A DNA stretch of 64,000 bases from Candidatus Hadarchaeales archaeon (GTDB lineage: Archaea; Hadarchaeota; Hadarchaeia; Hadarchaeales; WYZ-LMO6). Every line of letters starts with the position of its first letter. Within the stretch, counting starts at the first letter, position 1. The notes under the pieces are model-generated. The model saw only the letters and a program-made list of their open reading frames with translations. It searched no databases and was not told the origin of the DNA. The DNA lies in assembly GCA_038736355.1 (NCBI GenBank), contig JAVYML010000002.1:124001-188000 (forward strand), given 5' to 3'. The translations under genes were made by a program, and so were the position numbers. Positions 27,983 to 61,725 of this stretch are shown here, one piece after another.

Positions 27983-28576
27983 ATGCCCGAGATAAGTCCC
28001 TTCGCGAGCGTGGGGGTCTCGAACGTCTTCTTCAAGATGGTGCTAGGGGAAAACACGCCCAAGGCGATAGCGGAGGCCCTGGGGACCAAGCCCTCCACCG
28101 TGGTGGAGCACCTGCGCAGGCTGCAGGAGATGGGAGTGGTGAGGCTAGGGAAGAAGGAGGGGAAGTACCAGCATTACGAAATCGACTGGGGGAAGCTCGC
28201 AAAATCCTTCCTCAGGCACTCCTACACCCTTTCCCTGCTGAGGGTGGGTGGAAAGAGCGAGGAGCTGAGGGAGATGGAGGGGGTGGCGGAGGAGCTGGGG
28301 AAGATGGAGGAGTTCAGGGAGCTCCTGCGCCTCTATTTCGTGGAACTCGCCAAAAACATGGAGGAAGGGAAGTATCCCAGGCGCACCATCTGGGGGGCCA
28401 TCTACGGGTTCGAGGATTCGCTCGAGATCCTTCCCTCCCTGAAGGGAAGGCTGGGGGAGAAGGGGAGGAAGCTGACGAACCTGCTGGAGAGATGGGAGAG
28501 GAGCGCCAGGGAATTCAGATCCAGGGGACCCGCCTCGGCCTTCGAGAAGGCGATGCTCGAGCTCGGGAGGACTTGA
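27983..28576 (+). CDS. ArsR-like winged-helix transcriptional regulator
   Basis: 197 residues. The N-terminal 75 residues contain a clear HTH: VLGENTPKAIAEALGTKPSTVVEHLRRLQEMGVVRLGKKEGKYQHYEI, the ArsR/MarR-type recognition helix and wing. The C-terminal helical part (80-197) is of unknown function. Its 3' end overlaps the convergent FtsH-like gene by 62 bases, an unusually long overlap that would cause antisense transcription. Confidence 0.75.
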   Translation: MPEISPFASVGVSNVFFKMVLGENTPKAIAEALGTKPSTVVEHLRRLQEMGVVRLGKKEGKYQHYEIDWGKLAKSFLRHSYTLSLLRVGGKSEELREMEGVAEELGKMEEFRELLRLYFVELAKNMEEGKYPRRTIWGAIYGFEDSLEILPSLKGRLGEKGRKLTNLLERWERSAREFRSRGPASAFEKAMLELGRT

Positions 28577-33594: not shown

Positions 33595-33783
33595 TGGGAT
33601 ACCCCACCCCAGCCGAACCATATTTTTGGGGACCTAGATCTTCGTCTGGAATCCTTGGAAGCCCTATGCACCGTCGAATCCGCGTATGCCCCAAGACAAC
33701 GTTTTATTTTGTCTTCAGCCAAAAACCGAATTAGAGCCAGATTAGACTAGGATTTGGAGAAGGTACAGTTTCGGTGAAAGGCG

Positions 33784-33890
33784 AAAGGTTGTGAACTTCT
33801 TTATAAATCCCCCCCGCAGAAACCGAAGTTCACAAACCGAGACCCAAAACCTTTAAGGATGGGCGAGAAAAATTCGAGAGAAAGAGGGGG
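33784..33890 (+). promoter_or_regulatory. Leader and promoter of CRISPR array 1
   Basis: This segment abuts the first repeat and recurs before array 2 and at the third locus. A perfect 9-base inverted repeat (GTGAACTTC at 33791-33799, GAAGTTCAC at 33825-33833) encloses a TATA box CTTTATAAAT (33799-33808), so transcription would start near the right arm. A second conserved block, AACCTTTAAGGATGGGCGAG, lies closer to the repeat. Upstream, 33595-33783 holds no gene I can recognise. Confidence 0.85.
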
Positions 33891-36382
33891 GTTTCAGTAG
33901 GATGCCCCTGAAAATGGGGATTGAAAGTTTGTTTAAATAAACGCTTTTTGAGTTGCCACGGGCGTTTCAGTAGGATGCCCCTGAAAATGGGGATTGAAAG
34001 TACCTCCCAGCTTTGCGCATCCAGAACGCATAATAGGTTTCAGTAGGATGCCCCTGAAAATGGGGATTGAAAGTTATTCATCTGCACCGTGTATTACCTG
34101 AGTATGGGGTTTCAGTAGGATGCCCCTGAAAATGGGGATTGAAAGTCTGCGGCACCAGATGGTATAGTGCCACCCGTTTCCGGTTTCAGTAGGATGCCCC
34201 TGAAAATGGGGATTGAAAGAAATTCCTCCGGCTTTGGCCATTTCGCCGATATAGTGTTTCAGTAGGATGCCCCTGAAAATGGGGATTGAAAGGGAGGAGG
34301 TAAATTATGGAAAAACCGGTTTTCGGTTGTTTCAGTAGGATGCCCCTGAAAATGGGGATTGAAAGCATCGGGAAAAACCAAGCTTTTACCCAAAAGTGGA
34401 ATATGTTTCAGTAGGATGCCCCTGAAAATGGGGATTGAAAGAATGAAGAAATTTCACTAAGGTTAACAACGGCGTTTCAGTAGGATGCCCCTGAAAATGG
34501 GGATTGAAAGGGTTCCTTCGTTCGATAGCCAGAGCCAGAATTTCAGGTGTTTCAGTAGGATGCCCCTGAAAATGGGGATTGAAAGTTCAGGATGCCGATA
34601 TTCCACTTTTAGGCAAAAGTGTTTCAGTAGGATGCCCCTGAAAATGGGGATTGAAAGCGTGGTATGGGCCAAGCCTATGGTATTACCCCAGCGTTTCAGT
34701 AGGATGCCCCTGAAAATGGGGATTGAAAGGGTGATGCGGCTCCGGTGGGACATAATCCGGCGGTTTCAGTAGGATGCCCCTGAAAATGGGGATTGAAAGC
34801 TCACTTGCACTTACAGGCATCCTTACATCACCTCCGTTTCAGTAGGATGCCCCTGAAAATGGGGATTGAAAGGAAGGAAAATTAAATGACATCGGCATCG
34901 GAAGCCATAGTTTCAGTAGGATGCCCCTGAAAATGGGGATTGAAAGAGGAGGACCGCCTTCCCTTCCGCCAGTTGGAGGACGTTTCAGTAGGATGCCCCT
35001 GAAAATGGGGATTGAAAGAGGTGGCCCAGAGGGGCCAGGAAACTGGAGGGCTGACGTTTCAGTAGGATGCCCCTGAAAATGGGGATTGAAAGAATTCCTC
35101 CATTGGCAAACCGTATTTTTCCCATAGCGTTTCAGTAGGATGCCCCTGAAAATGGGGATTGAAAGTTAATCTCGAACCCGTGACCCTCCCCGCCCCTAAG
35201 CGTTTCAGTAGGATGCCCCTGAAAATGGGGATTGAAAGTTGCCTACCACAGCGGCCACATACCTGATTTCCAGGTTTCAGTAGGATGCCCCTGAAAATGG
35301 GGATTGAAAGCGACTCTGAAGAAGGTGGGTGAAGTGATTGGTTGTCATTTCAGTAGGATGCCCCTGAAAATGGGGATTGAAAGGTTTCAACGACCAAATA
35401 GTAGATACTCTTGTCTTTCGTTTCAGTAGGATGCCCCTGAAAATGGGGATTGAAAGATTACTCCCGTAAGCTGGCCTGTCGCCCCGGGAGTGGTTTCAGT
35501 AGGATGCCCCTGAAAATGGGGATTGAAAGTCCTCCCGTGGGTGATTCCATAAGTATCCCCGGGGGCGTTTCAGTAGGATGCCCCTGAAAATGGGGATTGA
35601 AAGTCCGAAAGGAGGAAGGAGGAAAGGAAGGCCGATCGTTTCAGTAGGATGCCCCTGAAAATGGGGATTGAAAGGGTGATTTCACAAACCTTCCGGTTTC
35701 GATACTTCTCGTTTCAGTAGGATGCCCCTGAAAATGGGGATTGAAAGTGCAACCGGAAGCCCAAGCATATGGTCAGGTCTGGAGTTTCAGTAGGATGCCC
35801 CTGAAAATGGGGATTGAAAGTCCTTCAAAGCTAAAAGCCGTTAATACTCCAACCGAGTTTCAGTAGGATGCCCCTGAAAATGGGGATTGAAAGGGACATA
35901 GCTCTTTCGTCATTTCGCAACCCCAGCAGTTTCAGTAGGATGCCCCTGAAAATGGGGATTGAAAGGAACGGCCGGGGGGGCCAACGAGGCGGAGCTGGCC
36001 GTTTCAGTAGGATGCCCCTGAAAATGGGGATTGAAAGCCAAGTCCCGATAGAACGCCTTGAGCCATCTCCTAAGTTTCAGTAGGATGCCCCTGAAAATGG
36101 GGATTGAAAGCGTAGTACACATAGATAGTGTTGTCACTATTCTCCAGTTTCAGTAGGATGCCCCTGAAAATGGGGATTGAAAGGGAAAATTTCAGCTCCT
36201 TAATACTTTCCGTATCGAAGTTTCAGTAGGATGCCCCTGAAAATGGGGATTGAAAGTTAAGCACGGTCAAGACATAATTGTAGGCTCTCCCGGTTTCAGT
36301 AGGATGCCCCTGAAAATGGGGATTGAAAGCTCCTCTCATTTACTCCATCATCGGGAGTTTTAGACGTTTCAGTAGATGCTTC
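33891..36382 (+). CRISPR. CRISPR array 1: 34 full repeats plus a truncated terminal repeat
   Basis: The repeat is 37 nt, beginning GTTTCAGTAGGATGCCCC and ending TGGGGATTGAAAG; repeat starts are 69-76 bases apart, giving 34 spacers of 32-39 nt. The ATTGAAAG end is the usual Cas6 5' handle, and CCCC/GGGG can form a small stem. Repeats are identical except that the copy at 35347 begins with A. The distal copy at 36366 keeps only about 14 matching bases and lacks one G, marking the old end. The leader at left sets transcription on the plus strand. Confidence 0.98.
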
Positions 36383-41949: not shown

Positions 41950-42063
41950 TCAGCACTTATGCTTGGAGAAGCAGGAGGTGCAGAGCCTTTTACCACAACT
42001 CGAACAGGTCATTATCTTCGAGGCATCCTTCACGTTCTTTCCGCATTGGACACACTTCGGCAC
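41950..42063 (-). CDS. 37-residue zinc-finger miniprotein
   Basis: GTG 42063 to TGA 41950. The peptide contains CVQC (4-7), CSSC (20-23), CTSC (28-31) and a terminal HKC (35-37): eight potential metal ligands in 37 residues, spaced like a two-zinc cross-brace finger (B-box/AN1 style). A GGGGGTGA ribosome-binding site lies just upstream, and a TAA in frame before it makes this the only start. Function unknown; it could bind RNA, DNA or protein. Confidence 0.6.
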   Translation of the reverse strand: MPKCVQCGKNVKDASKIMTCSSCGKRLCTSCFSKHKC

Positions 42064-42134
42064 TCTCTCACCCCCTTAGTTGTTTTCTTCTTGCCAAGAA
42101 ATAAGAATAAATCCGTATCCCTCAGGAGTTCGTT

Positions 42135-42212
42135 GGGGTCGTGGGGTAGCCTGGTCTATCCTCCTGGCTTTGGGAGCCAGGGACCTGGGTTCAAATCCCG
42201 GCGACCCCACCA
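42135..42212 (+). tRNA. tRNA-Pro (anticodon TGG)
   Basis: Complete cloverleaf with acceptor GGGGTCG/CGACCCC, anticodon stem CTGGC/GCCAG around TTTGGGA (anticodon TGG), T-arm CTGGG-TTCAAAT-CCCGG, discriminator A and encoded CCA (42210-42212). It stands directly before the cas6/array 2 block, a typical insertion-side position. Confidence 0.95.
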
Positions 42213-42279
42213 AGGCCCTTTGGGAAATGGTTTTTCAACAAAGTTTATTTGTACTCTGACAACACTTAAAAAGGCCGAT

Positions 42280-43206
42280 ATGCTCAAATTCTCATCCATA
42301 ACTTTGTACCTCAATTTTCCCTCTCAAACGAGGCTTCCCCGCTGGATGGGCTCGGCTTTCAGGGGTGGCCTCGGCCAACATCTCAAGCGGACAGTGTGCT
42401 ATCATCCGTTACGGGAGTGCGAAAGCTGCGAGCGTTCATCCGAATGCCTTTTCTATGCGGCCTATCAAAAATCCTCCGCGAAGAAAGGTCGTGGCCCTCC
42501 TCCACGACCGATCATCCTCGTCCCTCCGTTTTTCGGAAAGGAAATGGGATTCGCAGATGGGGTAAGACTCGAATTGAAGCTTCTGATGTTTGGCGATTAC
42601 ATCCGCTATTTTCCGCACACCATCCTAGCCCTCCAGCAATTCGGGAGCTACGGACTGGACGACGCAAGACACATAGGACAAAACAAGTTCGAGGTGGTGG
42701 AAGCTAGGTGCGAGCTCTCGGGCGGGATAGTCTACGATGGGAGCAAGATATATCCCTCAAACATTAAAGCGGTGGATGTCGTTGATCTACCACCTGTGAA
42801 GCATAGGCACTTACGAGTGGGCTTTAAAACCCCCATCGAACTCCCCCTTGGCTTCCCACCCTCTCCCCAGCATCTCCTGAAGCTCATCCGCCAGAGGCTG
42901 GTTCTCCTCGTCAACGAGTATGGGAGCGGAAAGCGTGTCCCAGAGCCTAAGTGCGAAGGAAAGGTCAAACAGGTTGCAAAGCATTACCATAGGCTAATAG
43001 GTTGCTCCCAGCGCTCGGGCAGGAGGGAATTCTGGAACTGCTGGACCGGCATAGCCGAGTACGAATTCGAAAAGATCGACAAAACTGGTGAGTGGCTGCT
43101 CGGCGTGGGAGGGGTGCTGGGGGCTGGGGCCAAGTCCTCCTTCGGGATGGGCTTCTTGGATCTCCGTGGGAAGAATCAACTAGGACCCAGTCCTGCGGGG
43201 ACTTGA
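42280..43206 (+). CDS. cas6: CRISPR repeat endoribonuclease Cas6 (copy 1)
   Basis: 308 residues from ATG 42280; the open frame before it runs through the tRNA and is not coding. RLPRWMGSAFRGGLGQHLKRTVC begins the RAMP-like fold, a cysteine cluster CESCERSSEC follows, and the C-terminus has the glycine-rich GVGGVLGAGAKSSFGMGF loop of Cas6. It should cut the 37-nt repeat to leave an AUUGAAAG handle. It is co-oriented with array 2, whose leader begins two bases after its stop. A paralogue lies at 53543. Confidence 0.9.
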   Translation: MLKFSSITLYLNFPSQTRLPRWMGSAFRGGLGQHLKRTVCYHPLRECESCERSSECLFYAAYQKSSAKKGRGPPPRPIILVPPFFGKEMGFADGVRLELKLLMFGDYIRYFPHTILALQQFGSYGLDDARHIGQNKFEVVEARCELSGGIVYDGSKIYPSNIKAVDVVDLPPVKHRHLRVGFKTPIELPLGFPPSPQHLLKLIRQRLVLLVNEYGSGKRVPEPKCEGKVKQVAKHYHRLIGCSQRSGRREFWNCWTGIAEYEFEKIDKTGEWLLGVGGVLGAGAKSSFGMGFLDLRGKNQLGPSPAGT

Positions 43207-43208
43207 GT

Positions 43209-43307
43209 TGTGAACTTCTTTATAAATCCCTCCTGCAGAAACCGAAGTTCACAAACCGGGGCCCGAAACCTTTAAAGATGGGGGGCGAGAAACAAAAGAA
43301 AGGGGGG
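43209..43307 (+). promoter_or_regulatory. Leader and promoter of CRISPR array 2
   Basis: Near-identical to the array 1 leader: GTGAACTTC (43210-43218) and GAAGTTCAC (43244-43252) flank the TATA box CTTTATAAAT (43218-43227), and the conserved AACCTTTAAAGATGGGGGGC block precedes the first repeat. It begins two bases after the cas6 stop, so homology to the other leaders starts where coding ends. Confidence 0.85.
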
Positions 43308-44946
43308 GTTTCAGTAGGATGCCCCTGAAAATGGGGATTGAAAGACTGGTTGGCGGTCTTGGTGGATGGGGATGTATGGTGTTTCAGTAGGATGCCCCTG
43401 AAAATGGGGATTGAAAGTCAGCCAGTGGAAGGGAAGGCCTTACGTGCGCACGTACGTTTCAGTAGGATGCCCCTGAAAATGGGGATTGAAAGGTGAATTT
43501 TTTGTTTACTACGTCATAAATTCCTGCCGTTTCAGTAGGATGCCCCTGAAAATGGGGATTGAAAGAAAACGGGCAACTATATGCCGCCAGTTTTGTAGGT
43601 GTTTCAGTAGGATGCCCCTGAAAATGGGGATTGAAAGAGCTGGAAAAGAACGGTAAAGTGGTAAGAAGTCAAGTTTCAGTAGGATGCCCCTGAAAATGGG
43701 GATTGAAAGCGCTGTTCTTCGTCGGGGAATGGGCCCCGCGCTTCGGTTTCAGTAGGATGCCCCTGAAAATGGGGATTGAAAGCTAGCTTTATTTTCTGCT
43801 CCGGCCGTATGAACACACCGTTTCAGTAGGATGCCCCTGAAAATGGGGATTGAAAGTCATTACCGGATCCGGCTCCAGATCCCTCATTTCGTTTCAGTAG
43901 GATGCCCCTGAAAATGGGGATTGAAAGTCTGACTCCTTATCACCAATTTTTTCGCTTGTTATGTTTCAGTAGGATGCCCCTGAAAATGGGGATTGAAAGG
44001 GACAATAGGGCTAGACAACATTCTGGCAACGGCAAGTTTCAGTAGGATGCCCCTGAAAATGGGGATTGAAAGAGGAGTGGTACCAGTACTCATATGATTT
44101 CTCATACCGGTTTCAGTAGGATGCCCCTGAAAATGGGGATTGAAAGTTCACTCTATCGATTGTCCATTCTTTTTCCCTGGCTGTTTCAGTAGGATGCCCC
44201 TGAAAATGGGGATTGAAAGCACGCATAACCTTCCCCCAAACCACCCGGGGGCCGTGTTTCAGTAGGATGCCCCTGAAAATGGGGATTGAAAGATACGCCC
44301 AATAACGCAGTTCAGCGCAACGTATCCGTTTCAGTAGGATGCCCCTGAAAATGGGGATTGAAAGGTTTTCTCCTTCCCGGGGGGAGATTTCCGGGTCTTG
44401 TTTCAGTAGGATGCCCCTGAAAATGGGGATTGAAAGTGCACACCGTTCCCTTGGGGTCGTAGGGCACGGAGGGTTTCAGTAGGATGCCCCTGAAAATGGG
44501 GATTGAAAGCCGCCGGCGGGGGCGATAAAAGCCCACGGTTTATGCGTTTCAGTAGGATGCCCCTGAAAATGGGGATTGAAAGTCAGCTCCGAATCGATGT
44601 CCAAGTTCGTGTATCAAGGTTTCAGTAGGATGCCCCTGAAAATGGGGATTGAAAGAACCTGGAAGCCTCGATACTATTGTCCCAATTGTCGGTGTTTCAG
44701 TAGGATGCCCCTGAAAATGGGGATTGAAAGTTCTTTCCGAAAATCGCTTCACCTTCACTCCCAACGTTTCAGTAGGATGCCCCTGAAAATGGGGATTGAA
44801 AGTCATTTCGTGATTTAAGAAGCTTTTCAAATATTTCGTTTCAGTAGGATGCCCCTGAAAATGGGGATTGAAAGACTTCCACCAGCTTTCTTGTTCCATA
44901 ACGGGTTTCGTTTCAGTAGGATGCCCCTGAAAATGGGGATTGAAAA
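43308..44946 (+). CRISPR. CRISPR array 2: 23 repeats, 22 spacers
   Basis: Same 37-nt repeat and orientation as array 1, with repeat starts 71-75 bases apart. The distal repeat at 44910 ends in A instead of G and is followed by a run of A. I saw no spacer shared with array 1. Both arrays are probably served by one set of acquisition proteins and Cas6 enzymes. Confidence 0.98.
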
Positions 44947-53542: not shown

Positions 53543-54430
53543 TTACTTGATTTGGCTAAGTTCAAAAAAACCCATTCCAAAAGAGAACTTAGACCCGGCC
53601 CCCAGAACCCTTCCAACCGAAAGCAACCAGCGCCCGACCTCATCGATTTTCTCGAAGTGATATTCTGCGGTTCCCATCCACCCCTGCAATTCCCTCTTTC
53701 CCGATCTCATCGACCTGCCAGGAAGCCTCACGAGTTTGCTCTCAACAATCCTCCCGCTTCCCTCGCAAGAAAAATCCGGGACCTTCCTTCCATCCCCGTA
53801 CTCGTTCACGAGAAGGATTAGCCGATGCCTAATCAGCTCCAAGAAATCGAAGGGTGAGGAGGGAAGCCCCTTTGGGAGCTCGATAGGAACCTTAAACTCA
53901 ACCCTCACCCCATTCCCCTTAAAGGGCTCAAGCTCCCGAACCTCCACAGACTTAAGGTTCTTCACGTATATTATCCCATCCCCGAAAACCTTTTGCCCGC
54001 TGAACCAGCATCTTCCCTCCGTTATCCTGAAGCGGTTGAAGCCAAGCCTTCTGAGGTTCCCGAGCCCGTCTACCCCCAGCCACTGGAGGGTGAGAATCAG
54101 GTGGGGAAAAAATCTTATGTAATCTCCAAGCAGAACAAGATCGACCTCCATTTTTATCCTCCCTTTCATGGGTCTGCCAAAGGGTGGGATCACGGCAATG
54201 GGCCGGGGGGGAGGGGTCCTTCCCCTTTTAGCAAAGGGACGCATGAAAGCAATGTAGAACGGGCATTCGTCCGAAAGGTTGCATTTTTCGCATTCTTTGC
54301 TGGGACAATAGCAGACGAGGGGGCGGAGGTGCTGTCCTAGTCCTCCCCTGAAGGTTGACCCAAGCCAACCGGGAAGCCTGACAGGGGAAGAGAAAAGGAG
54401 GCTGAGTCTGGCCCTTGCTACATTCAGCAT
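53543..54430 (-). CDS. cas6: CRISPR repeat endoribonuclease Cas6 (copy 2)
   Basis: 295 residues from ATG 54430, chosen by alignment to the N-terminus of copy 1; a TTG at 54448 would add six residues. RLPGWLGSTFRGGLGQHLRPLVCYCPSKECEKCNLSDEC, LLGDYIRFFPHLILTLQ, LIRHRLILLVNEYGDGRKVP and the terminal GRVLGAGSKFSFGMGF parallel copy 1 throughout. It differs in a run of basic residues (LVRLPGRSMRSGKRE). It lies upstream of the effector operon on the same strand. Confidence 0.9.
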   Translation of the reverse strand: MLNVARARLSLLFSSPVRLPGWLGSTFRGGLGQHLRPLVCYCPSKECEKCNLSDECPFYIAFMRPFAKRGRTPPPRPIAVIPPFGRPMKGRIKMEVDLVLLGDYIRFFPHLILTLQWLGVDGLGNLRRLGFNRFRITEGRCWFSGQKVFGDGIIYVKNLKSVEVRELEPFKGNGVRVEFKVPIELPKGLPSSPFDFLELIRHRLILLVNEYGDGRKVPDFSCEGSGRIVESKLVRLPGRSMRSGKRELQGWMGTAEYHFEKIDEVGRWLLSVGRVLGAGSKFSFGMGFFELSQIK

Positions 54431-54448
54431 CATATATATTGGTAACAA

Positions 54449-56111: not shown

Positions 56112-56921
56112 TTGACGATAAACGCCCACATAGTGACTACGGGAACTTCCACGCTGACCAATGCGAGGAAGGAAATGGGGAAGGAGCCCACGGAGGAAGA
56201 ACTCCTTTCCTTTGTCAAGCGTGATCCCAGGAGGGCCAGTGCGGAATTGAACACACTCCTCCCCCTTCTAGAGGAGAGAAAAGACATGCAGCACTACGTG
56301 TATCTGTTACATTCCGACACGGAGGAAGGGAGGCTCTGCGCAAGGGTGCTCCAAAGTTTTTTGTCCCAGCTCAAGCTGAGGATTTGCGCCAAATCTGTGG
56401 AAATAGCTGGGCTTGGAGATCCAAAGAAATTTCGGAATGGACTGGCCAATCTTTTGGAAAAGGTTGTGAGATTGATAAAAAGTCACTATCTCCAAAAAGA
56501 CATGGTTTACGTTCACGCGACCGGAGGATTCAAACCAGAAACCGCTATAGCGCTTCTGGCCTCCAATTTACCAGGAGTCGGGGCTCCCGTCCTGTATATC
56601 CATGAGTCCTTTAGAGAGGTGGTGAGGCTTCCGGCCATGCCGGTTTGGCTGAGGGGGAAAGAGAAGTTCAGAAAGCTGATGGATCGTATGTGCAGGAGTA
56701 GGAAAGTACACCAGCTACAATTGGAAAGGGAATTCATGAAGGAAACGGTTTCGGAAGCGGAAAGACTTGGGTGGATAGAAAGGAGGGGAGATGAACTCGA
56801 GATAACCCCAATGGGTCACTTGCTTTGGGAGAGGTTTGTTCATTTGGGCTTGTATGGACCGAAAAAGAGAACCCGCCATAGAAAAGTTAAGAATGATTCG
56901 GCTAAGAATGCCACGGTTTAA
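56112..56921 (+). CDS. CARF plus winged-helix protein (APE2256-like)
   Basis: 269 residues from TTG 56112. NAHIVTTGTSTLTNARKEMGKEP at the start and VYVHATGGFKPETAIALLASNLPGVGAPVLYIHESF (about 128-165) form the two ligand-binding blocks of the APE2256-type CARF domain. The C-terminus FMKETVSEAERLGWIERRGDELEITPMGHLLWERF is a winged helix. Relatives act as ring nucleases or ligand-controlled regulators in type III systems; which applies here cannot be told from sequence. Confidence 0.8.
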   Translation: MTINAHIVTTGTSTLTNARKEMGKEPTEEELLSFVKRDPRRASAELNTLLPLLEERKDMQHYVYLLHSDTEEGRLCARVLQSFLSQLKLRICAKSVEIAGLGDPKKFRNGLANLLEKVVRLIKSHYLQKDMVYVHATGGFKPETAIALLASNLPGVGAPVLYIHESFREVVRLPAMPVWLRGKEKFRKLMDRMCRSRKVHQLQLEREFMKETVSEAERLGWIERRGDELEITPMGHLLWERFVHLGLYGPKKRTRHRKVKNDSAKNATV

Positions 56922-57342: not shown

Positions 57343-58317
57343 TTAGAGCCCAAGCGAGCGAGGAGATACTTTGATCAACTTTCCATCTTTCATTTCCCAC
57401 AGGATATTCAACTCAGTTGCCCACCTTTTCCATTTAGAAAAATTCTTAACTTCTTTATGGATTTTGTTCCCCAAATTCGCTATGCTTTCTAAAAAGGGTC
57501 CGCGTGAAACCCTGTCCCCTTCTATGGTTATAAGCCTCCCGCGAAGTTTAGCGATGAACTGCTTGGGAAGATCCAATCTCTCGAGCATTTGCTCTAACTC
57601 ACCCATACCCATATCGCCTTTGGCGAGCCTGCTGTTCAACTCGTTTATAAGCTCTCCAATGGCCAGCTGAAAAAGGGGAAATTCCCGCCACTTTCTCATA
57701 GCATTTTCGACATATTCCCTAGGGTCTCGCATGTTGGGCCTCTCAGTTTCCGGATGTAGAAGTAATACATCGTTCTGAAAAATGTAGTAGTACCGTGCGG
57801 ATATGGCGTGGAAAGTCCCTCCCAGTAGCAAGGCCATATTTATTGGATTAGTTCCTCCAATCATGTTAATCCAAACTTCTTTCTCGCGAAGCGCGTAGAG
57901 AGTTGTACCTATTTTTTCAAAACAATCCTCAAAATCTTCGTGATTAACTTCTACGAAGTAGATGTCTTTAATCCATTCGCCGTCGTAAAAAGGACGAAAC
58001 TTTTCATCCTCAAGTTCTTTCCATAGATTTCGGAGATATTTCCACATAGATTGCGGGAACACTCTTCCGCTTCCAAACCACTTATCTTCGATTTCTATTT
58101 TTGCGGTCCCCGTAATAACGGATCGTGAAGTGAATATGATGATACACTCAGGGGCTCCTCTGCTCCCTTGTTTAAGCTCTCCCGAGGTTTCAAAAAACCT
58201 TTTGGCATTTTCGTTTCCAAGAACCGCCGATTTCAAAAAGAGGTAGATGTAAGTAAGAGGAACAGTCACAACTCCAGGACGCAACCCCATTCCGCTAAGA
58301 TGGTAGACTCCCATCAA
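57343..58317 (-). CDS. CARF-like CRISPR accessory protein with unknown output domain
   Basis: 324 residues. VWINMIGGTNPINMALLLGG (about 148-167) resembles the conserved ligand loop of CARF proteins, preceded by alternating strands and helices (ECIIIFTSRSVITG, KDIYFVEVNHEDF). The C-terminal 120 residues are helical and charged; I see neither a HEPN RxxxxH pair nor a PD-(D/E)xK or HTH pattern I can trust. A TTTTATATC TATA box about 25 bases before the ATG suggests a leaderless mRNA. It could be a new CARF effector. Confidence 0.6.
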   Translation of the reverse strand: MMGVYHLSGMGLRPGVVTVPLTYIYLFLKSAVLGNENAKRFFETSGELKQGSRGAPECIIIFTSRSVITGTAKIEIEDKWFGSGRVFPQSMWKYLRNLWKELEDEKFRPFYDGEWIKDIYFVEVNHEDFEDCFEKIGTTLYALREKEVWINMIGGTNPINMALLLGGTFHAISARYYYIFQNDVLLLHPETERPNMRDPREYVENAMRKWREFPLFQLAIGELINELNSRLAKGDMGMGELEQMLERLDLPKQFIAKLRGRLITIEGDRVSRGPFLESIANLGNKIHKEVKNFSKWKRWATELNILWEMKDGKLIKVSPRSLGL

Positions 58318-58489: not shown

Positions 58490-58526
58490 CTTTCAATCCC
58501 CATTTTCAGGGGCATCCTACTGAAAC
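58490..58526 (-). CRISPR. Solitary CRISPR repeat behind a full leader (spacerless locus)
   Basis: One exact copy of the 37-nt repeat on the minus strand, directly after the third leader copy. No second repeat follows within the expected 73 bases, where sequence reads TTCTAGTTGATCC and onward. An inverted repeat GAGTTTGA/TCAAACTC lies further on (about 58405-58430). The locus looks like an empty or freshly reset array that could still acquire spacers. Confidence 0.9.
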
Positions 58527-58644
58527 CCCTTTCTTTTGTTTTTCGTCCCCCCATCTTTAAAGGTTTCGGGCCCCGGTTTGTGAACTTCGGTTCCTGCGGG
58601 GGGGATTTATAAAGAAGTTCACAACCTTTCGCCTTTTACCGAAA
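58527..58644 (-). promoter_or_regulatory. Third CRISPR leader copy
   Basis: Minus-strand copy of the array leaders: the inverted repeat arms lie at 58614-58622 and 58580-58588 around the TATA box (about 58605-58614), and the CCTTTAAAGATGGGGGG block at 58547-58563. Homology to the array 1 leader extends upstream through GTTTCGGTAAAAGGCGAAAGG to the cas4 stop codon. Confidence 0.85.
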
Positions 58645-59244
58645 CTATACCCTCTTGCAAAACTTCGCCACCTCACAGTACCCGCAATACTCTGGACTGG
58701 CAGCCCTGGGAACCTGATCGGAAGCTATCATCTCTCGTATCTTCTCCAAATCCCTCTTCAAAGCCTCCTTCTCCTCGGGTAGAATGTTCAACCAAAAGGT
58801 CCGGTGGGAGGGCAGGAGGTAAATGAGGCCCCTCCTGATTCTCACCCCCAGCGACCTTTCAAGCAGCACGGCATAAGCCAGCATCTGCTTCCTCCACGCC
58901 CTCGAAACGTAGGGCAAATCCGAATACTTCACATCGACCGGCACCATCTCCCCGCTCTTTAGTCTCACCACCGTGTCCGCCTTCCCGAAAAGCCCCATCT
59001 CCCGATCCTCCAGGGGGAGGTCGTGCAGGATCCGATCCACCTCTTCTGGGGAAAACCCGTAGATCCTCTTCCTGCGTCCGGTCCTCCCCGGCTCCCTACC
59101 GTGCTGCTCACCCCCAAGCTCCACCTTCTTCCTCTCCGGTGGATACAACCCCAGCTTCCTGATGAAGTAGAGCTTCCTCGGGCAGTAAAAGTACTGGTAT
59201 ACTTCCCAGGCACTTATCTCACCAGCGCTGCCAAAACCCTTCAT
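58645..59244 (-). CDS. cas4: CRISPR-associated exonuclease Cas4
   Basis: 199 residues from ATG 59244 (GGAGAGGT just upstream; GTG 59259 would add five residues). EISAWEVYQYFYCPRKLYF gives the first Fe-S cysteine, GLFGKADTVVRL and VPVDVKYSDLP the RecB-like nuclease core with Asp and Lys, and CGYCEVAKFC the remaining cysteines. Cas4 trims prespacers and checks the PAM together with Cas1-Cas2. It overlaps cas1. Confidence 0.93.
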   Translation of the reverse strand: MKGFGSAGEISAWEVYQYFYCPRKLYFIRKLGLYPPERKKVELGGEQHGREPGRTGRRKRIYGFSPEEVDRILHDLPLEDREMGLFGKADTVVRLKSGEMVPVDVKYSDLPYVSRAWRKQMLAYAVLLERSLGVRIRRGLIYLLPSHRTFWLNILPEEKEALKRDLEKIREMIASDQVPRAASPEYCGYCEVAKFCKRV

Positions 59245-60238
59245 ACCTCTCCAGCTCACCCCTCAGGAACCTCGCCAGCTTCCTGGCCTGGTGGAGGAAG
59301 AGCCCACCCCAAGTGAGCCTAAGGTCCTCGAACCTCACCTCTTCTTCCAGCCTCCTGAGAAGCTCCTGAAGGTAGAACCTCCTGACCTCCTCCCCCATCT
59401 GGCACACCCCATCCACCACCTCAAAACCCTCCTTGGAGACCATCCTCTTGCTCACCATTCCCACCACCATCCTGTCCACCACATGGGGCCTGAACTCCTC
59501 CATCAAATCCAAAACCAAGCTCGGCCTGCCCGGTCTATCGGCGTGCAGGAAACCCCCGTAGGGATCCAGCCCTGCGTAATGCACCGCCCTCCATACCTCC
59601 CCCAGCAAAATCCCGTAGCCGTAGTTCAGCATGGCGTTCACGGGATCTGTGGCGTATCTCCCGCTCCTCCCTCCAAAGCCCCACCCCTCGAAGATTCCCG
59701 CCAAGGCTTCCCAGTAGAGCTGGGCCCCCCTCCCCTCCAGGTTCATTATTCTCTCCCTCACTTCATCCACCTTCTTCCCCTCCACCTCCTCCAGCTCAGG
59801 CAGGAGCTTCACCATCTCCTCCGCCGCGGTTCGCAACCTCTCCGCCAGGGAAGGAACCGTTTCCACCCTCTTCTTGGCCAGTGTCTGGAGGACGGCGACC
59901 TGGTTCTTCAGCTTCGCCCTTATCACGGCCTTGGCCACCCCCACCCCCCTCTCATCCCCGTAGGCCAGATACTGTTCCCTCCTCGTGCTCACCGTCCTCA
60001 TCTCGGGGGAGGAGAGCCTGGCCTTAACCTCACCCCGAAAGTCCACGATGAGCACGTCCACCCCGTGTTCCGCTAGCAGCCTCAGGGCGTCCGTGCTCAC
60101 CACTCCCTTTCCCGAGATGATCACCTGCTCCAGCTCCTGGGGCTGGAGGCGCGCCACGGTCTTCCCGCCCTCCCTCACCACTATGGTCTCCCCCTTCCTT
60201 CCCACGAACTTCCCGAAGCCGTCCACCACCAGCCTCAC
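59219..60238 (-). CDS. cas1: CRISPR integrase Cas1
   Basis: 339 residues from GTG 60238, which overlaps the csa1 stop (GTGA) and gives the typical start RLVVDGFGKFVGRKGETIVV. Catalytic blocks are MNLEGRGAQLYWEAL (Glu), DPVNAMLNYGYGILLGEV, LHADRPGRPSLVLDLMEEFRP (His and acidic residues). Complete and presumably active in integrating spacers at the shared leader-repeat junctions. Confidence 0.95.
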   Translation of the reverse strand: MRLVVDGFGKFVGRKGETIVVREGGKTVARLQPQELEQVIISGKGVVSTDALRLLAEHGVDVLIVDFRGEVKARLSSPEMRTVSTRREQYLAYGDERGVGVAKAVIRAKLKNQVAVLQTLAKKRVETVPSLAERLRTAAEEMVKLLPELEEVEGKKVDEVRERIMNLEGRGAQLYWEALAGIFEGWGFGGRSGRYATDPVNAMLNYGYGILLGEVWRAVHYAGLDPYGGFLHADRPGRPSLVLDLMEEFRPHVVDRMVVGMVSKRMVSKEGFEVVDGVCQMGEEVRRFYLQELLRRLEEEVRFEDLRLTWGGLFLHQARKLARFLRGELERYEGFWQRW

Positions 60239-61119
60239 GCGCACACCTCCGAGAAGGGGCATGCCTGCCTGCACTCCGCCGGCCTGCCCGGATCCTTCTT
60301 CTGGGCCACCAGCTCCAGCTTCCTGTCCCTCTCCTCCAACCACCAGTTCCTCAGGTCATCGTTGATGAAGAAGAGGTCCCGATTCACCACCACCCTGCCG
60401 TTCCTGAAGCCCACGTGGACGGAGCACCCCACGTCCACGGGCACCTCGTAAAGGCTCTCGAAGACCAGGGCATAACCCGTTGGGTAGAGGCGGTAGAAAT
60501 CCCTGGGGGATCCTCCCACCTTCACGTCGAAGATGAGGTGCCTTAGGTAGTCGTAGCAGTCCACGCTGAGCGTACCGCTCAGGCCCAGCAGCCTCCCGTC
60601 CAGCTTGTGCTCCACCAGGAAGGGGAGGGCCACCGCCAGCACGTGGGGCTCGTCCGCGTACGGGTGGGCGGCCCTCGTTTCCAGGTAGGCGGCCCTGGCT
60701 TGGCTCAGCACCAGCTCCCAGAGGGGCTCCAGGCAGGAGCGGAGGGCCCTGGCGTTCTCCACCTCTCCCCTCCTCCCCAGCTCCCCCTCCCACCACTCCT
60801 CGAAGCTCAGGTCGAACCTCCCCTGCCTGCAGGACCCGAAGAGGTGCTCCAGCAGGTTGTGGGCCATGGCCCCAAGCAGGATCTCCTGCGTGGGCTTCCC
60901 CTGCTTTTTCTCCACGTACATCAGGTAGACGTCCCTGCCCGTGGGGCAGAACTTCCCGCAGACGGAGAACATGGAAATGCGCTCCGGGTAGTATGGCTTC
61001 AGCGGTTCCCTCCACCAGTTCCATCCCCTCAGCTCGGGGGTCACCCCCACCTCCCTCGCCAGGGGGAGAACGCGGTTGAGGAGGAACTTGTGCTCCTGGG
61101 CGGAGAGGAAGAACACCAC
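60235..61119 (-). CDS. csa1: Cas4-family protein Csa1
   Basis: 294 residues. The Csa1 pattern is seen: CGKFCPTGRDVYLMYVEKKQGKPTQEILLGAMAHNLLEHLFG near residues 54-95, GLSGTLSVDCYD and LIFDVKVGGSPRDFYRLYPTGYALVFE (nuclease core), and terminal cysteines in CRQACPFSEVC. Csa1 is the second Cas4-like nuclease of archaeal type I-A adaptation modules, here linked to a type III effector instead. Confidence 0.85.
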   Translation of the reverse strand: MVFFLSAQEHKFLLNRVLPLAREVGVTPELRGWNWWREPLKPYYPERISMFSVCGKFCPTGRDVYLMYVEKKQGKPTQEILLGAMAHNLLEHLFGSCRQGRFDLSFEEWWEGELGRRGEVENARALRSCLEPLWELVLSQARAAYLETRAAHPYADEPHVLAVALPFLVEHKLDGRLLGLSGTLSVDCYDYLRHLIFDVKVGGSPRDFYRLYPTGYALVFESLYEVPVDVGCSVHVGFRNGRVVVNRDLFFINDDLRNWWLEERDRKLELVAQKKDPGRPAECRQACPFSEVCA

Positions 61120-61163
61120 TGGCCTCCCTTAAAGCTCGCCCTCCGTACCTTTTTCCCTTTCCC

Positions 61164-61451
61164 TCACACGAGCTTTACCCTGTCCTCCTCCACCAAGGAG
61201 GGGACTGGCCTTTCGGAGACTATCCTGCACAGCCTGGCACAGCGCTCGCACAGGGGTATGACGTAGATCGAGTCCCTCTCCCCTCCTATGAACTTCGGAA
61301 GCTCCTTCACCAGGACTTCCCTGTCGTGGGCATTCAGCTCCCCCTTGAAGGCGCTGTACTGGATCCTCTGCAGGCCGTAGTCGAAGAGACGGTCGGCCAG
61401 CTTGGTGCGGATGTCGTCAGAGCTTATGTCGTAGATGACAAGGGTCAGCAT
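61164..61451 (-). CDS. cas2: CRISPR-associated Cas2
   Basis: 95 residues from ATG 61451 (a TTG at 61454 adds one residue). LTLVIYDISSDDIRTKLADRLFDYGLQRIQYSAFKGEL is the ferredoxin-like Cas2 start with the conserved Asp, and SIYVIPLCERC the fourth strand. It forms the integration complex with Cas1. Its ATG overlaps the stop of the ATPase relic upstream. Confidence 0.95.
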   Translation of the reverse strand: MLTLVIYDISSDDIRTKLADRLFDYGLQRIQYSAFKGELNAHDREVLVKELPKFIGGERDSIYVIPLCERCARLCRIVSERPVPSLVEEDRVKLV

Positions 61452-61725
61452 CAATGCATCCTCACCAGCCCGACTTGAAATACCCTCCGTATGATCGGGT
61501 CTACGATGGAGTAGACCTCCCCTTTTTTCTCAAGGAAACCGCCTTTACGAGTTCCTGAAGTTCGAGAGGATGTTGTCGGCCACTTTTTCCCTCCTCCATT
61601 TCCAAGCTTCTCTTGAGGTTTACCCAGGAAGCCTCCTCCATCCAGGCAGCGGCCCGCATGATCGCGAAGTACCTCCTGCTCCCACGCCTCCTTACCCTGA
61701 GGAAGTTGGAGAACTCTAGCCCCAA
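61451..61725 (-). pseudogene. Frameshifted C-terminal relic of an archaeal AAA ATPase
   Basis: The first part reads RRRGSRRYFAIMRAAA, then ASWVNLKRSLEMEEGKSG and LQELVKAVSL; after a one-base shift at an A6G4 run (near 61526-61535) it continues GEVYSIVDPIIRRVFQVGL to a TGA at 61451-61453. The combined sequence resembles the winged-helix end of archaeal ATPases (PF01637 type). The N-terminal ATPase domain is missing. Confidence 0.5.

Follow-up and report, generated by a model that had tools for sequence, protein, structure and literature searches.

A conserved, leader-specific palindrome of Hadarchaeales CRISPR arrays as a putative recognition element upstream of the array promoter

What is the role of a long palindrome that precedes each of three CRISPR (clustered regularly interspaced short palindromic repeats) arrays in a hadarchaeal genome? 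We analysed a 64,000-nucleotide stretch of DNA, referred to here as the window, from a Candidatus Hadarchaeales archaeon (GenBank assembly GCA_038736355.1, contig JAVYML010000002.1, positions 124,001 to 188,000 of the forward strand). The window is part of contig 2 of a 1.27 Mb genome, labelled G000, that is ~96% complete. A sequence-only reading had proposed that the palindrome encloses a TATA box and is the operator of a regulator that blocks TBP. The suggested regulator was a CARF-winged-helix protein from the same island, which would tie production of CRISPR RNA (crRNA) to cyclic oligoadenylate.

A palindrome specific to CRISPR leaders

All three leaders of the window contain TTGTGAACTTC-N25-GAAGTTCACAA, a perfect inverted repeat with 11 bp arms, 47 bp in total. 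In leader 1, arm 1 (TTGTGAACTTC) occupies 33789-33799 and arm 2 (GAAGTTCACAA) 33825-33835 (forward strand). The whole palindrome spans 43208-43254 (forward strand) in leader 2 and 58578-58624 (reverse strand) in leader 3. A form with 9 bp arms, GTGAACTTC-N25-GAAGTTCAC, is found at 33791-33833 and 43210-43252 on the forward strand and at 58580-58622, where the leader is on the reverse strand. This confirms the inverted repeat noticed by the sequence-only reading and extends its arms to 11 bp. None of 100 dinucleotide-shuffled versions of the window contained three such sites. A scan of the whole genome (1,272,294 bases) identified exactly three, each preceding an array of the repeat GTTTCAGTAGGATGCCCCTGAAAATGGGGATTGAAAG, rather than many unrelated copies. 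The first repeats of arrays 1 and 2 are at 33891-33927 and 43308-43344 (forward strand; last listed repeats end at 36329 and 44946, respectively). The sole repeat of array 3 is at 58490-58526 (reverse strand). Away from the leaders, the best palindrome score in the window was -24, compared with 66-84 at the leaders, and the promoter regions of cas genes had no palindrome.

Leaders 1 to 3 are near-copies. Hence, agreement among these three alone is weak evidence. From sequence comparison, the strong evidence for the palindrome is its conservation in other species. We searched 61 genomes for homologous leaders, using leader 1 and its repeat as the query. These were found at three arrays in genome G005 (leaders G005a to G005c) and at one array each in G010 and G018. 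Together with the window leaders (W1 to W3), the set comprises eight leaders from four species, three genera and two families, as labelled by the tool; G005 and G010 are congeneric.

The 9 bp arms are 25 bp apart in all eight leaders, without exception. The common layout is TTGTGAACTTC (CTGTGAACTTC in G010), followed by a T/A box, a middle part that varies, approximately GCARAAAYC, and GAAGTTCAC. Palindrome and first repeat are separated by 53-57 bp (55 bp in four of the eight). We compared W3, G005c, G010 and G018 in all six pairings. Arm identity was 18/18 in every pair, while loop identity was only 13-18 of 25. Downstream, 20-27 identities were counted across 53-58 columns and, upstream, 7-33 across 40-59 columns. 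Upstream flanks are unrelated between species, except for those of G000 leader 3 and G005c. The arms mark the border of the conserved sequence; in W2 and G010 they begin where the upstream gene ends. Exceptions within the arms are few: G005b has one altered base in arm 2 and G010 deviates outside the 9 bp core. In G018, G005b and G005c the arms extend outwards to 12-14 bp. The palindrome was better than all 200 shuffles in an inverted-repeat test for seven of the eight leaders; for G010, 5 of 200 shuffles equalled it.

Searching the 27 genomes of the order for arms with a 7 bp core, spaced by 20-30 bp, gave 17 places. Eight were the leaders, and the remaining nine had no loop of the TTTATAAA/CAAAAATC type. 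In the GTDB collection, 49 stretches matched the 9 bp arms at 22-28 bp spacing, where an arithmetic estimate predicts ~26 by chance. A TATA-type loop was present in only two, both archaeal contigs of this group with the match beside CRISPR repeats. The GTDB stretch L085 contains 96 short repeats by crude count but was rejected as a leader, with no leader-like loop in the 500 bases around the match. A viral scan for the arms returned three stretches, none with the loop. In the phylum outgroup (G027), a leader lies behind cas4, but its best inverted repeat was equalled by 72 of 200 shuffles and is not significant. No such leader precedes the single repeat of G003, and the G007 repeat is of a different type. 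Arrays in G008, G001 (C36) and G018 (C21, C44) were not countable, lying at contig ends or having no visible leader. Judged by titles and abstract openings, a literature search on CRISPR in Hadarchaeota or Hadesarchaea brought up no work on a leader of this group. With arms conserved across species and only three copies in the genome, the earlier idea of an operator-like, sequence-constrained site held up, and we infer that it is bound by a protein.

Could the palindrome instead be the copied end of a leader-array unit, spread by recombination and with no function of its own? Copying has placed leader units at new sites within both G000 and G005. However, the arms are identical between genera whose flanks have diverged. 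The arms also decay in a relict leader of G001 (L140, ~357-460), where they precede one degenerate repeat; no cas1 was found in the G001 genome. Given the arm identity between genera, a passive remnant is already hard to hold, and we give it almost no credence. As a separate observation, the extended leader of W1, W3 and G005a to G005c starts sharply at a TTTCGGT..AAAGGCGAAA stretch, as if leader-array units were copied elsewhere. Two of the G005 units lie directly after tRNA genes (Leu, Phe; L024 194-281, L025 218-292) and the third after cas4. The upstream end of the extended leader carries a small second inverted repeat, TTTCG-N8-CGAAA (33769-33788 in leader 1). This is present in five of the eight leaders and absent from leader 2 and the G010 and G018 leaders.

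Alternatively, RNA running through from the upstream gene could fold at the arms into a hairpin that acts in termination or processing, or the DNA itself could form a cruciform. Folded as single strands, the three window leaders give -11.7 to -12.7 kcal/mol (z -4.4 to -6.2). In addition, the upstream gene is directed toward the leader in W2, W3, G005a to G005c and G010. However, it is sequence that is conserved rather than pairing. Across the eight leaders 8 of 11 arm pairs are invariant, and the break in G005b is left unrepaired. The compensatory changes that the sequence-only reading had looked to in relatives amount to one double change, in the outermost pair of G010. Covariation says little. 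No T-run follows arm 2 in the three window leaders. An Rfam scan around leader 1 gave nothing over thresholds; matches under them were limited to the CRISPR repeat and to a microRNA, the latter attributable to chance. The invariance pattern fits sequence recognition by a putative protein, though eight sequences also allow a stable hairpin. We consider a hairpin or cruciform very improbable as the explanation of the arms.

Position relative to the array promoter

The TATA-like box TTTATAAAT lies inside the loop of the palindrome (33800-33808, forward strand, in leader 1). However, the box is not central. It adjoins arm 1, whereas the centre of symmetry lies in a variable, C-rich portion of the loop, and there is no transcription factor B recognition element (BRE). 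A second T/A box lies downstream of the palindrome. In leader 1 this is TTTAAG (33852-33857, forward strand), with an A-rich BRE-like stretch ahead. In leaders 2 and 3 it is TTTAAA (43271-43276, forward strand, and 58556-58561, reverse strand). These second boxes are candidate core promoters of the arrays.

Both boxes were scored with a BRE plus TATA model, seeded from an archaeal BRE/TATA consensus and trained on 31 tRNA upstream regions of the source genome. Briefly, the training set consisted of 29 of 30 returned loci (L121 was dropped) and two in the window; the other 9 of 41 tRNA matches were left out. An unseeded Gibbs search of tRNA upstream regions was discarded, as it found a pyrimidine-rich pattern and not a promoter. 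In the 31 regions, positions -35 to -31 are A-rich, and a T/A box follows at about -30 to -24. The palindrome-internal box scored only 2.9 bits, below all 31 training promoters (3.7-14.7), because arm 1 occupies the BRE position. For the second box, the scores were 9.24 (G010), 9.03 (leaders 2 and 3), 7.65 (G018), 6.49 (each of the G005 leaders) and 3.68 (leader 1). This box was the best match to the model in five of the eight leaders (W1, W2, W3, G010 and G018). The scores thus lend little to the claim that the site acts by covering a functional TATA box. The internal box is well below the second in two of the three window leaders, and less clearly so in leader 1; in G005 the second box is not the top match.

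For spacing measurements, second boxes were chosen by hand. Arm 2 is 17-18 bp from the second box in seven of the eight leaders, and the box begins 35-43 bp ahead of the first repeat. The TATA box is usually centred at -26/-27 (PMC4333418). Hence, transcription would be expected to start roughly 8-16 nt before the repeat. Given the model scores and the position of the second box, it is more probable that the palindrome is an upstream element than that it covers the TATA box in use. This evidence is of a statistical kind and uneven among leaders.

Our preferred explanation, which we hold with modest confidence, is that the palindrome is the leader-distal recognition element of a putative sequence-specific DNA-binding protein. 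This element would lie upstream of the array promoter. The palindrome would mark the upstream end of the core leader, ~55 bp before the first repeat. It would sit 17-18 bp ahead of the T/A box most likely driving the array and ~11-13 bp ahead of the BRE-like stretch. Each arm contains its own near-dyad, GAA-C-TTC, and 34 bp separate the centres of the two arms. The site of one winged-helix dimer is ~18-25 bp, and 34 bp is a long reach. Hence, a pair of dimers, one per arm, would suit the site better than a single dimer across both arms. A factor bound there would most likely promote or gate the transcription of crRNA that starts at the second box. It may also help to position spacer integration, for which there is precedent in Sulfolobus.

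Several observations weigh against this explanation. The second box ranks third or fourth in the three G005 leaders, with other places higher, and its score in W1 is low. Furthermore, the gap between arm 2 and the box is 12 bp in G010, not 17-18 bp, yet the distance from palindrome to repeat stays at 55 bp. Hence, the constraint may be on the repeat, and so on integration, rather than on the box. Only four species contribute, of which two are in one genus. Finally, no adjacent transcription-factor gene is shared among the neighbourhoods, whose lists of open reading frames were scanned by eye.

Another explanation is that the palindrome serves adaptation only and has no role in transcription. 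Cas1-Cas2-Cas4/Csa1, or a host factor that bends DNA, would dock there and gauge the ~55 bp up to the leader-repeat junction. The narrow range of palindrome-to-repeat distances is kept over three genera despite diverged sequence between, and each of the four palindrome species has both cas1 and csa1. Leader 3 is fully retained, with a lone repeat and no spacers behind it, and the cas-gene promoter regions of the window lack the palindrome. In S. islandicus, mutation of a leader-distal motif lowers spacer uptake (PMC9456107). Conversely, a T/A box is found 12-18 bp downstream in all eight leaders, placing the palindrome where a regulator would sit. The palindrome was also not found in G004 and G009, which have csa1; arrays with this type of repeat were likewise not found in these two genomes. 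We regard a role confined to adaptation as possible, though doubtful. As a side observation, array 3 with its leader (58490-58626) lies beside cas4 and, with this leader complete, one repeat and zero spacers, may be a blank array.

Candidate factors and neighbouring genes

The CARF-winged-helix protein favoured by the sequence-only reading is encoded at 56112-56921 (forward strand). It matches PF09651 (the Cas_APE2256 CARF family) with 123 bits, against a cut-off of 24.8. The winged helix is predicted: the C-terminal model has the order H-E-H-H-E-E-H at 184-244, with block mean pLDDT (predicted local distance difference test) of 61-88 and a whole-model mean of 49. Among proteins of solved structure, SSO1393 and the ring nuclease Sis0811 are its closest relatives. 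Residue K141 aligns with GLKPE of 7pq2, and is equivalent to catalytic K169 of Sis0811. The protein falls under the cut-off of the ring-nuclease equivalog NF040951 (72.6 vs 600 bits). By sequence, it appears nearest to ring nucleases.

In the earlier model, this protein is a cyclic-oligoadenylate-responsive repressor that binds over the box at 33800 and blocks TBP. The box resembles a good TATA and adjoins arm 1, the protein combines a CARF domain with a predicted winged helix, and type III genes share its island. However, the box has no BRE and the low score given above, and the protein keeps the lysine equivalent to K169. Moreover, PF09651 and the Cas10 palm domain were each found in only 2 of the 27 genomes of the order, G000 and G005. 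In G010 and G018 (~90% and 83% complete, respectively) the palindrome is kept, and neither PF09651 nor Cas10 was found. Gene absence in incomplete genomes is soft evidence, yet both genes are missing from both genomes. This speaks against an obligatory link to cyclic oligoadenylate. Hence, neither the 56112 protein as an obligatory partner nor a direct tie between crRNA production and cyclic oligoadenylate is supported, and we consider the repressor model unlikely. Csa3 (TIGR01884) had no match over the 60.2-bit cut-off in any of the 27 genomes; nearly all listed weak matches covered only the helix-turn-helix part. As far as the family model tells, the factor would not be Csa3, and the CARF protein would not be obligatory.

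The adaptation module (58645-61454) is on the reverse strand and transcribed toward leader 3, whose palindrome lies shortly past the cas4 stop codon. It comprises cas2 (61164-61454), csa1 (60235-61119), cas1 (59219-60343) and cas4 (58645-59259). The cas2 gene was named from its translated sequence and from the matching gene order in G010 and G005. The order cas2-csa1-cas1-cas4-leader-array is identical in G000, G005 and G010. Two Cas6-like genes are present. One (41959-43206) ends just ahead of the second palindrome, which begins directly after its stop codon; the other is at 53543-54448. Directly behind array 3, 57343-58317 encodes a CARF3/Csx1-like protein with no Pfam match. A stand-alone winged-helix protein is encoded at 27983-28576, 5 kb upstream of leader 1.

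More speculatively, a putative leader factor, independent of Csa3 and cyclic oligoadenylate, could dock at the palindrome, fire transcription and position integration ~55 bp away. It would be an archaeal counterpart of IHF with a two-armed site; we offer this tentatively. We conclude that this conserved palindrome is real, specific to leaders and a putative recognition element. It most likely serves to regulate the array from an upstream position, with spacer integration the main alternative or addition. The element bears on leader recognition by archaeal adaptation complexes, and on how crRNA supply might be controlled without IHF or Csa3. A short, strictly conserved, leader-only site also provides an exact bait for DNA-affinity capture of the factor, and defines mutations to test. 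Finally, it cautions against tying every CARF-winged-helix protein of an island to its leaders, since the site is kept where CARF and Cas10 genes were not found.

Comparison with known leader elements

In Pyrobaculum, the invariant CRISPR promoter AAAAACTTAAAAA is ultra-conserved genus-wide and shared with some tRNA promoters (PMC3396285). The likeness is an ultra-conserved element ahead of arrays. However, the Pyrobaculum element is described as promoter-like sequence itself, whereas the hadarchaeal palindrome would lie upstream of the promoter. MM_0565, a CARF-helix-turn-helix protein of Methanosarcina mazei, binds the 5' part of a conserved 108-nt leader (PMC7465815). It thus resembles the present case as a CARF-type regulator at the distal part of a ~100-nt conserved archaeal leader. 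Conversely, the text consulted describes no palindrome in that leader, and the hadarchaeal palindrome is not tracked by CARF presence. In bacterial I-E and I-F leaders, an IHF site and an upstream motif ~60 bp from the repeat position the integrase (PMC5815122, PMC7465815). The hadarchaeal palindrome is likewise a conserved leader motif, at a distance from the repeat compatible with a putative role in integration.

The Sulfolobales have CAPPa (CRISPR-associated promoter palindrome), a Csa3a-associated palindrome 12 bp upstream of BRE and TATA at acquisition genes; loci C, D and E also carry it in their leaders (PMC8699464). Binding of Csa3a in these leaders is reported as nonspecific and independent of cyclic tetra-adenylate (PMC8699464). 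In S. islandicus, Csa3a is described as an activator of array transcription, and the leader-distal motif has a part both in transcribing the array and in taking up spacers (PMC9456107). Like CAPPa, the hadarchaeal element is a leader palindrome upstream of BRE/TATA (~12 bp for CAPPa), generally absent from other promoters, and order-wide (PMC8699464, PMC9456107). It has a CAPPa-type position, upstream of the model-called BRE-like stretch and T/A box (17-18 bp from the box in seven of eight leaders; 12 bp in G010). The sequences are unrelated: CAPPa is TCCCN8GGGA, 18 bp (PMC8699464, PMC9456107), while GTGAACTTC-N25-GAAGTTCAC is 43-47 bp. CAPPa also occurs at the acquisition-gene promoter (PMC8699464), whereas the hadarchaeal palindrome is found in leaders only. 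CAPPa is reported to be bound by Csa3a; in all 27 genomes of the palindrome's order, Csa3 over the family cut-off is absent. Place and habit are thus those of CAPPa, but sequence and size differ, the cas promoters have no copy and there is no Csa3. Hence, by this comparison, the hadarchaeal palindrome is an analogue of the Csa3a/CAPPa palindrome and not a member of its family.
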